Made by a program: the position numbers and the translations under genes. A stretch of DNA of 64,000 nucleotides from positions 3,286,001 through 3,350,000 of the forward strand of contig NZ_CP042806.1 in the NCBI RefSeq assembly GCF_008000815.1, in the 5' to 3' direction. Under the pieces are notes generated by a model. It was given only the letters and a program-made list of their open reading frames with translations. It was not told where the DNA came from and ran no database searches. This DNA comes from Terriglobus albidus (GTDB lineage: Bacteria > Acidobacteriota > Terriglobia > Terriglobales > Acidobacteriaceae). Of the stretch, positions 31,467 through 39,811 are shown piece by piece. Position 1 is the first letter of the stretch. Each line of letters starts with the position of its first letter.

Positions 31467-31601
31467 CTAGTGTGGTGTTTCAGAAGTTCTTGTCATAAAT
31501 GTTGTCATCCTGAACGAAGTGAAGGACCTGCTTTTTCAACGCTTCGGATGGCAAAGGCTCTTCATCATTTATGTCGCGAACTTTTAAATTGAGGACACTA
31601 G
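31467..31601 (-). mobile_element. MITE-like element, copy A (135 bp, CTAG ends)
   Basis: Bounded by CTAG at 31467-31470 and 31598-31601. The two ends are inverted repeats: both begin CTAGTGT and, after a variable part, share AGTTC and then CATAAATG, giving a terminal inverted repeat of about 35 bases. The core, read on the minus strand, includes GAAGCGTTGAAAAAGCAGG and is nearly identical to copy B. No transposase is encoded, so it would be a non-autonomous element. Its right-hand CTAG supplies the TAG stop of the Dps gene. Confidence 0.75.
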
Positions 31602-32113
31602 CCGCGGGTTGCTTCGAAGAGGAACCAGCTACGACGCTGTGATTGGTCGATCCAGTTCTCCAGCAGACTGGCCGTGGCAACATCACCGCCGTCGTCGCAA
31701 AGAGCGTGAATGGCGCGCATTCTCAGTGTTAGCGCTTTCTCGTCTTCATGCAGTTCGCTCAGCATGTCTTCGGCGGTAACGAACTCTGCGTCGTTGTCCG
31801 CAACCCGCTGAAGGCGGGCAATGTGGCCGATCGAGCGGATTGTGGTGCCGCCGATCTTCCGTACGCGCTCCGCGATGTCGTCTGTCATGGCGAAGAGCTG
31901 ATCGCCATGCTCATCCAGCAGCAGATGGTAATCACGGAAGTGCGGTCCGCTCATATGCCAGTGGAAGTTCTTCGTCTTCAGATAGAGAGCAAAGACATCT
32001 GCCAGCAGGCCATTCAGGCCGGCCGAGATATCGCGCACAGCTTCACTGGAGAGATCTGAGGTGAGGGTGAGGGGTGACTGTTGGCGCTTCTGCAGATCAG
32101 CGGTCGCTGTCAT
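31598..32113 (-). CDS. dps: Dps-family DNA protection / ferritin-like protein
   Basis: A 171-residue four-helix protein. The Dps ferroxidase-site motifs are visible: KTKNFHWHMSGPHFRDYHLLLDE is split here as KTKNFHWHMSGPHF then RDYHLLLDEHGDQLF, placing the conserved His, Asp and Glu residues near 52-70. Dps dodecamers oxidise and store iron and shield DNA in stress or stationary phase. Its TAG stop lies inside the CTAG end of MITE-like copy A. The gene stands alone. Confidence 0.93.
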   Translation of the reverse strand: MTATADLQKRQQSPLTLTSDLSSEAVRDISAGLNGLLADVFALYLKTKNFHWHMSGPHFRDYHLLLDEHGDQLFAMTDDIAERVRKIGGTTIRSIGHIARLQRVADNDAEFVTAEDMLSELHEDEKALTLRMRAIHALCDDGGDVATASLLENWIDQSQRRSWFLFEATRG

Positions 32114-32415: not shown

Positions 32416-32438
32416 ACCCGCTAAAAGCGGGTTTTGTT
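32416..32438 (+). terminator. terminator after tRNA-Ser
   Basis: ACCCGCT pairs with AGCGGGT around an AAA loop, followed by TTTGTTAT. It separates the tRNA transcript from queG and argues that queG does not begin at the in-frame TTG at 32434. Confidence 0.8.
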
Positions 32439-32484
32439 ATCTGTGCCGTTTCTGAAATGCGAGCAGCGTGAGCTACGCAGTCTT

Positions 32485-33621
32485 ATGGGGAACCCGGTCA
32501 CATCCATTGGCTCTGAACTTCGCGATGCACTCGTTGCTCGTGCGTTGGAGTGTGGTTTCTCCGCTGCCGGTATTGCTGCTGTTCCTGAAGACAATCCTGA
32601 TCTGCGGCGGCGCTATGAATCGTGGGTTGATCAGGGCTATGCGGGAGAGATGGGGTATCTGCAGCGGCGTGATGAAGCCGGGCAATTATTGCGATCATCG
32701 TTGCGTGTGGCCATTCCCTGGGCTCGGTCGGTGATTGTCTGCTCGCTCAACTACAACGCTGCTCATCCGAAGTCGATCGATCCGGCTCCTGAAGGTGCAG
32801 GTTGGATTGCTCGCTATGCCTGGAGCGGTCGGCCTGAGGGAGACACTCTTAGCCCGACGGACTATCACGATGTCCTTCTCTCGAAGCTGCGCGGTGTGGA
32901 AGAGTTCCTGCGTGAGCACGCAGGGCCTGATCTGGAGGTCCGCAGCTATGTCGATACCGGTCCGGTGGTCGAACGAGGTTTTGCCGAGGCCGCAGACGTG
33001 GGGTGGGTAGGGAAGAATACCTGCCTGATCCGGCAGGGGACCGGCTCATGGACGCTGCTTGCTGTCATTGTCACCTCGCTGCCTCTGGCACGTGAAGCGG
33101 AGCTCTTACCTGCTGCAGATCGCTGCGGTACCTGCACGCGCTGCCTGGATGCCTGCCCCACCGGAGCGTTGATCGCTCCGCGGCAGATGGACGCGCGCAA
33201 GTGCATCGCCTATCTGACCATCGAGAAGAAGGGCGAGATCGAAGAGGAGCTGCGTCCGCTGATGGGGCGGCAGATCTTCGGCTGCGATATCTGCCAGGAT
33301 GTCTGTCCGTGGAACCGCAAGGCTCCCATCGGCGCCACAACGGAGATGCAGGCGCGCATCGAGCTGGTGAACCCTGACCTGGCTATGCTGGCGGCGATGA
33401 CGCCCGCTGAGTTTCGCACGCGTTTCCGCGGCTCGCCGCTGGAGCGCACGCGTCTGAAGCGTCTGCGCCGGAATATCGCGATTGCGATGGGGAACAGCGA
33501 AGACGCACGTTATCTGCCGCAGCTTGAAGCCTGGCAGCAGTCAGAGGATACGGTATTGCGTACGACGGCAGCGTGGGCTGTGCAACGCATCACCCACAGC
33601 CGCCAGCGTGCTTCGGTCTAG
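32485..33621 (+). CDS. queG: epoxyqueuosine reductase
   Basis: A 378-residue cobalamin- and iron-sulfur-dependent enzyme that makes the last step of queuosine synthesis in tRNA (epoxyqueuosine to queuosine). Two 4Fe-4S cysteine clusters are seen: CGTCTRCLDACPTGAL (about residue 213) and GCDICQDVCPWN (about 268). The N-terminal corrinoid-binding domain has WVDQGYAGEMGYLQRR near residue 50. The ATG at 32485 is chosen because the open frame upstream overlaps the tRNA-Ser terminator and lacks family similarity. Its stop TAG is formed by the CTAG end of MITE-like copy B. Confidence 0.93.
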   Translation: MGNPVTSIGSELRDALVARALECGFSAAGIAAVPEDNPDLRRRYESWVDQGYAGEMGYLQRRDEAGQLLRSSLRVAIPWARSVIVCSLNYNAAHPKSIDPAPEGAGWIARYAWSGRPEGDTLSPTDYHDVLLSKLRGVEEFLREHAGPDLEVRSYVDTGPVVERGFAEAADVGWVGKNTCLIRQGTGSWTLLAVIVTSLPLAREAELLPAADRCGTCTRCLDACPTGALIAPRQMDARKCIAYLTIEKKGEIEEELRPLMGRQIFGCDICQDVCPWNRKAPIGATTEMQARIELVNPDLAMLAAMTPAEFRTRFRGSPLERTRLKRLRRNIAIAMGNSEDARYLPQLEAWQQSEDTVLRTTAAWAVQRITHSRQRASV

Positions 33622-33728
33622 TGTCTTAAATCTAAAGTTTGTGTCACCTGAAGCGTTGAAAAAGCAGGTCCTTCACTTCGTTCAGGATGACAAGACTTTT
33701 GCTAAGAACTTCAGATTCACCACACTAG
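33618..33728 (+). mobile_element. MITE-like element, copy B (111 bp, CTAG ends)
   Basis: Runs from CTAG at 33618 to CTAG at 33725-33728. Its ends are imperfect inverted repeats of 22 bases with about 18 matches: CTAGTGTCTTAAATCTAAAG on the left and CTAGTGTGGTGAATCTGAAG read from the right. The core, with GAAGCGTTGAAAAAGCAGGT and the following bases to GATGACAA, matches copy A but lacks about 24 internal bases. It lies exactly between two convergent genes and supplies the TAG stop of both. Confidence 0.75.
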
Positions 33729-33931
33729 ACTCCGCGAATGACGTTGGCGGCGCTGAGCCCCTTCGGACCCTGCTGGCACTCGAATTCGACTGCCTCGCCT
33801 TCGTTCAACGTCTTGTAGCCTTCGTCCTGAATTGCAGAGAAGTGTACAAATACGTCCTTTCCATCAGCGCGCTGGATAAAGCCGTAACCTTTTGTTCCGT
33901 TGAACCACTTCACGACACCCTTTTCCTTCAC
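33725..33931 (-). CDS. cold shock domain protein (CspA family)
   Basis: A 68-residue single cold-shock domain. RNP1 (KGYGFIQ) and RNP2 (VFVHFSAI) are intact, after the family start [13 protein letters not shown] at 33931 is taken as start because it is preceded by AAGGG and gives the normal length; the frame is open further upstream to 34075 but that part is unlike the family. It binds single-stranded nucleic acid as an RNA chaperone. The TAG stop lies in the right CTAG of MITE-like copy B. A long untranslated leader upstream is typical of the family. Confidence 0.92.
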
Positions 33932-34204
33932 AGCCAGTCCCTTCTTGTTTGCGAGCCTCTCCCTGGAGATAGAGAGACACCTCGGAGAACCTTCGACATC
34001 TGCGAAGCGGAGGAGGCCCCTACACCCGAAAGAGGATATGGAGGTTTTGGAGTTACACGTGGAGTTGCAAGACACCGAGGGCCCAGTGAAACGTATGAGT
34101 TCGAATGTCTTATGCCTTTTATGGCAAAAATCTGGCCGTCATGCAACACAAATCTTTCTGCCGCCCGGCTCTGCTAGCATCAAAGTTTGCGGATTCCGGT
34201 GCCG

Positions 34205-39738: not shown

Positions 39739-39811
39739 CTAGTATGGTGAGTCTAAAGTTCGTGACATAAATCATGAAGAGCTTTTGCCATCCGAAGCGC
39801 TGAAAAAGCAG
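39739..39811 (+). mobile_element. MITE-like element, copy C (truncated)
   Basis: Starts with CTAGTATGGTGAGTCTAAAG and continues with the same core as copies A and B (CATAAAT, GAAGAGC, CCGAAGCGCTGAAAAAGCAG) but ends abruptly at about 39811, without the right inverted repeat. It lies just beyond the stop of the convergent beta-propeller gene. Confidence 0.65.

Follow-up and report, generated by a model that had tools for sequence, protein, structure and literature searches.

Probable IS630-type MITEs with CTAG ends that coincide with the stop codons of neighboring genes in Terriglobus albidus

Two short inverted-repeat elements in the genome of Terriglobus albidus, one (copy B) between the convergent genes queG and csp and the other (copy A) at the 3′ end of dps, are very probably MITEs of an IS630/Tc1-mariner-type transposon. 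This assignment is based on their ends of approximately 18 bp, which match those of an IS630-family insertion sequence (IS) of another genus, and on the CTAG found at the ends. Both elements are located in a stretch of 64,000 nucleotides (the window; C1:3286001-3350000) of a 6.4-Mb single-contig genome, called G000 here, and the coordinates of the relevant features are given in Table 1.

Table 1. Positions in the window of the two elements, their CTAG ends, and the adjoining genes
Feature	Position	Strand	Description
MITE copy B	33622..33724	+	103 bp, TGT...ACA inverted-repeat element, flanked by CTAG on each side
Limits of copy B if TA is the duplicated target	33621-33725	+	G...C
Left CTAG of copy B	33618..33621	+	TAG at 33619-33621 is the queG stop
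Right CTAG of copy B	33725..33728	-	CTA at 33725-33727 is the TAG stop of the cold-shock gene
queG (epoxyqueuosine reductase)	32434..33621	+	PF08331, PF13484; longest ORF
Cold-shock gene (csp)	33725..34075	-	PF00313; longest ORF
MITE copy A	31471..31597	-	127 bp, family of copy B, opposite orientation
CTAG of copy A with Dps stop	31598..31601	-	stop at 31598-31600
Far CTAG of copy A	31467..31470	-	other end of copy A
Dps/ferritin-like gene	31598..32113	-	PF00210

The sequence GTC-TAG forms the 3′ end of both queG and the convergent csp. The original prediction that the TAG codons of these two genes are the CTAG ends of copy B was confirmed from the ORF coordinates; copy B including both CTAGs spans positions 33618-33728, and the predicted interval of 33615-33731 was correct to within 3 bp. 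As had also been predicted, the stop codon of Dps is situated inside a CTAG of copy A. The true start of csp is probably further in than that of the longest ORF, near 33931-33940. Complementarity between copies A and B amounts to 87% across 87 nt; both are short (127 and 103 bp, respectively), carry terminal inverted repeats (TIRs) of approximately 18 bp, and contain no transposase gene. In an Rfam search of the whole window, the gathering score was reached by two tRNAs only, and neither copy matched an RNA family. A family end, TAGTATGGTGAGTCTAAAGTT, at positions 39740-39760 of the window (G000:C1:3325740) marks a fragment.

Four other members of the genus (G008, G012, G015, and G017) were compared at these two sites. 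In G017, the queG/csp junction is without the element: queG, whose product is 82% identical to that of T. albidus, ends in GAAATCTAG, csp enters the same CTAG from the opposite strand, and a single palindromic CTAG serves as two stop codons (GAAATCTAGGCTCCGCG). This is precisely the ancestral arrangement that had been proposed for the site, i.e., one palindromic CTAG stopping both genes. Diverged copies of the element occupy the same place in G008 and G012, with the queG stop in CTAG, and in the queG/csp gap of G015, a short segment containing TTTAGACTC-like repeats (L078:2217-2257) stands in place of the element and is perhaps an eroded remnant; the stop codons of G015 are TAG for queG and TAA for csp. 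Orthologs of dps lacking the element are present in all four genomes, and the stop position is kept in each of them, with the closer of two G017 genes taken for that genome. The context of the dps stop is CTAG in G012 and G017 and CTAA in G008 and G015, and the downstream flank in G012 is found at a distance equal to that of G000 measured outside the element. The dps gene of G012 reads in two pieces (residues 1-95 and 107-170; G012:C148:4840-5285), and its middle is broken or misassembled.

The survey of empty sites covered 14 of the 16 stop-overlapping sites represented in G000 (all but the L249 and L054 groups): queG/csp, dps, and 12 further sites, each of which was queried in the same four genomes. 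For 11 of the 12 further sites, one or more genomes had an ortholog that lacks the full element, and L027 had no match. The comparison of the queG/csp and dps 3′ ends in relatives, which had been suggested along with the original prediction, came out in its favor. Over all sites, an ortholog without the full element was found for 13 of 14, and the stop position was kept at 11 of these 13. The two sites that differ are L005, with a stop approximately two codons earlier (extrapolated), and L049, with a stop one codon earlier. For L028 against G015, the script gave an offset of -15 that stems from an alignment gap, and a side-by-side reading gives the same stop position. The stop of L048 is one codon later in G017 and the same as that of G000 in G012 and G015. 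At L012, the G012 and G015 orthologs are filled, and the element is absent in G008 only. An element-free relative carries CTAG at the stop for 6 of the 13 sites (queG, dps, L006, L020, L032, and L048), and the remaining empty sites in relatives have CTAA, TTAG, ATAG, GTAG, or TGA there; because relatives have a sequence other than CTAG at several sites, the element may not have entered a CTAG in every case.

The element belongs to a family of repeats. Copy B as a query found 42 matching places in its own genome (E ≤ 0.001), several of them via the interior core alone, and the end motif (≤3 mismatches) occurs at 38 places in this genome versus 2 for the reversed pattern. The seed copies measure 103-162 bp and have distinct TIRs. 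Places with the body motif number 38 in G000, 27 in G008, 8 in G012, 9 in G015, and 0 in G017. A typed consensus query had a match in 20 of 61 relatives; among the matches listed, those of element length are confined to G000, G008, G012, and G015, and those in other genomes cover approximately 25-43 nt of the interior core, from which it follows that the core is spread more widely than the element. The best match in a named relative is to the Acidobacteriaceae MAG Bin6.3 (96%). The core, GTCCTTCACTTCGTTCAGGATGACA (positions 33668-33692 and 31503-31527 of the window), also occurs in other family genomes where no MITE ends accompany it, and the MITE seems to have captured a more widespread repeat as its core. 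A palindrome of approximately 36-40 bp resembling CACCCCAGCGAACAAGTTCGCTGGGGACCCC is nested in the core of several copies (L072, L073, and L142; the 162-bp class). A second repeat, similar to GGCGTATCGACAAATTC, is located directly outside the MITE ends at L006, L004, L142, L054, and L128; it had four matches in the control DNA, none of which was adjacent to a stop codon.

The link to an IS630-type transposase is provided by genomes outside the genus. Among 250 genomes of the family, 24 contain a 21-nt end pattern (≤1 mismatch), and the reversed control gave 1 match. At L302 (genome G177), two such ends are approximately 1.1 kb apart around an ORF of 362 amino acids. The transposase of L302 and L318 matches the IS630 model NF033545 of NCBIfam with 282 bits (cut-off, 100) as well as Pfam DDE_3, and the IS has CTAG at both ends. 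With CTAG counted, up to 25 of 26 nt are identical between the MITE ends and the right end of the L302-type IS. The IS at L302:340-1545 is itself placed between two further TIR ends, with one CTAG common to each junction, as if it had inserted at the end of another element. Among 23 IS copies that have a long ORF, the TAG of the right end is the transposase stop codon in 10, as counted by a script that recognizes the IS ends by simple patterns and misses several right ends; L319 and L321 show the same arrangement by eye.

Related transposases (E ≤ 1e-40) were detected in 37 of the 250 genomes, and at this threshold the L302 kind is absent from G000, G008, G015, and G017 (G012 is not among the 250). 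A search of the five genus members with the IS630 model gave 28 matches, distributed over G000, G008, G012, and G015, and none in G017. Ten of the 28 loci were fetched, and none has MITE ends, L376 holding a single look-alike with 5 mismatches; IS630 copies of the own genome were set aside as the source of the MITE on this ground. The other 18 matches are mostly partial (95 residues), below the cut-off, and in G000. The MITE looks orphaned in the present genome, and we infer its mobilizing enzyme from the IS of another genus.

The base pairs that are duplicated upon insertion are probably TA rather than CTAG, judging from the sequences of filled and empty sites, and the terminal G of the element would then complete the TAG. 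At most filled sites, CTAG is found at both ends, and a duplication of TA is therefore indistinguishable from one of CTAG there. At L028, on the other hand, G015 has AAGCTAA versus AAGCTAG[111]CTAA in G000, so that the gene-side end reads CTAG and the opposite end CTAA, and insertion would apparently have changed the TAA stop to TAG. A similar pattern is seen at L006 against G008, with diverged flanks. In 60 records with both ends recognized, one-base departures from CTAG at the outer base consist of five left TTAG and five right CTAA, and those at the inner base of three left CTAA and no right counterpart; such an excess at the outer base is what one would predict for an element that includes G and C. 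Changes in the middle TA (CCAG and CTGG) are also frequent among the ends and look like decay. IS5-type elements follow a YTAR target rule, and a four-base CTAG duplication of this type, in which both stop codons would be copies of the target and the element would add no stop base, accords with CTAG/CTAG as the commonest end pair (18 of 60) and with L156, where CTAA at both ends is compatible with a 4-bp duplication too. It is nevertheless unlikely, given the CTAG/CTAA ends beside a CTAA relative at L028 and, less clearly, L006, the position of most one-base departures, and the IS with MITE-like ends, which encodes an IS630 and not an IS5 transposase; the tested members of this family, IS630 and ISY100, duplicate TA (PMC2170065). 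The single CTAG ancestor of the queG/csp site in the original prediction stands, whereas its duplicated CTAG target probably gives way to TA, with L028 as the clearest example.

How often the element coincides with stop codons was assessed with gene calls from a purpose-written codon-usage script trained on G000, which are less sure in other genera. A total of 132 matches to the element or its core were reduced to 94 (E ≤ 1e-8 and enough flank) and then merged by flank similarity into 82 sites, in which the copies of G008, G012, and G015 are those fetched rather than a full census. The controls were taken from 262 CTAGs in 454 kb of G000; 10 that fell in masked element sequence and 17 close to edges were discarded, and the remaining 235 comprise 30 at a stop (1 of these being the stop for two genes), 104 inside genes, and 101 intergenic. 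Among sites with both ends intact, 13 of 18 are at a gene stop, versus 30 of 131 non-genic CTAGs (Fisher p = 6e-5); the corresponding values are 26 of 53 for sites with at least one intact end (p = 6e-4 versus non-genic CTAGs) and 14 of 29 for those with both TIRs at ≥13/18 and any flank (p = 0.007). Selecting intact ends may inflate this excess because a stop codon protects its own end. The count of stop overlaps suggested along with the original prediction supports enrichment over other CTAGs in this clade, with an excess over non-genic CTAGs that is weak when all 82 sites are taken unconditioned (27 of 82; p = 0.07). None of the 82 sites is wholly within a called gene and 3 overlap one, as against the 104 of 235 control CTAGs inside genes. 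Of the 72 sites flanked on both sides by called genes, 4 are in divergent gaps (versus 36 of the 101 intergenic controls) and 38 in convergent gaps.

The conditioned counts would agree with an element that recognizes stop codons, as originally proposed, or gene 3′ ends as its targets; however, this is very unlikely in view of the unconditioned count, the avoidance of divergent gaps, which selection predicts, and the situation in other genera. In the IS copies there, a host stop codon is found at none of 18 left ends and at 1 of 12 right ends (1 of 30 in all); at loci with the same ends, among the matches listed, it is found at 3 of 29 ends, 4 of the 29 having no called gene on that side. Since neither the IS copies nor the loci in other genera show an excess at stops, these are apparently not what the transposase seeks; the harmlessness of the insertion, also part of the earlier proposal, is plausible. 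A preference for CTAG combined with selection against insertions in genes and promoters fits most of the stop pattern. That the element is instead retained between convergent genes to terminate transcription in both directions, or as a hairpin that stabilizes RNA, could be read from its share of convergent gaps and from the folding of copies A and B, which is better than that of shuffled sequences on both strands (z, -2.3 to -4.4). Inverted ends alone yield hairpins, however, and a terminator scan gave no terminator-like site in either copy; moreover, the full element is missing in sister species at most queried sites, and the queG/csp copy is missing or eroded in G015, all of which makes such a role improbable. 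A GTAG-type REP moved by a Y1 (RAYT/TIRYT) transposase would likewise have ends that frequently provide TAG stops, TIR-flanked Y1 transposases are known in Acidobacteria (PMC3733652), and the interior core appears REP-like by eye. This origin is extremely unlikely, as the inverted ends are common to an IS with an IS630 transposase of the DDE type, CTAG is found on both sides, and the copies are 103-162 bp long with distinct TIRs, which places them outside the GTAG REP/REPtron group.

For an IS630-type MITE, the stop codons would be accounted for as follows. An IS630 transposase that is not found in this genome now would have excised the element and inserted it at the TA of a CTAG-like target, and the insertion would have duplicated the TA. 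As the element proper would start with G and end with C, a TA that opens a stop codon would become TAG from either side; at a palindromic CTAG shared by convergent genes, both stops would thus be rebuilt, and neither protein would be altered. The same geometry of TA plus G would give the transposase its own stop in about half of the examined IS copies. Two causes would make overlap with stops frequent: a non-genic CTAG is in many cases a stop, and insertions in genes and promoters would be lost. Stop codons as such would not be recognized by the transposase. It is conceivable, and we put it forward tentatively, that each end of the element supplies a portable base for a stop codon; insertion at the TA that opens a stop would rebuild TAG on both sides, so that the MITE could occupy convergent junctions and fill gene ends in one lineage, a shared CTAG stop being the safest site.

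The components of this arrangement, i.e., IS630, the preference for CTAG, and REP ends serving as stops, are already known as parts. Tenzen and Ohtsubo (1991; cited in PMC6811581 and PMC2170065) reportedly described a preference of IS630 for the TA in CTAG. IS630 of Shigella sonnei resembles the present case in its IS630-family transposase and its reported CTAG target, and it differs in being an autonomous IS from another lineage. In IS870, which is of the IS5 type, the stop of its own ORF is completed by the CTAG target; this concerns the stop of the IS itself and not those of host genes. The system of RUP (repeat unit of pneumococcus) and IS630-Spn1 is similar in its length (approximately 107 bp), IS630-like inverted ends, TA-containing target, and over-representation between convergent genes; it differs in sequence and phylum, RUP is AT-rich (27.5% GC), and RUP ends acting as host stop codons are not described in the accessible portions of PMC2229807 and PMC3049150. 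GTAG REPs, whose ends often give flanking ORFs their TAG stop, are palindromes of 20-40 bp, often near Y1 tyrosine transposase genes, and are not IS630-type MITEs (PMC3733652). Within the literature covered, mostly at the level of titles and abstracts and with subscription journals thinly represented, no IS630 MITE was reported to supply host stop codons.

The sites described here offer a comparative example of how a target preference and an end sequence can together render the insertion of a transposon at gene ends almost harmless, and relatives reveal the pre-insertion state. They also illustrate that an excess at stop codons can arise without targeting. A testable point is that elements that duplicate TA and start with G would preserve or create TAG stops.
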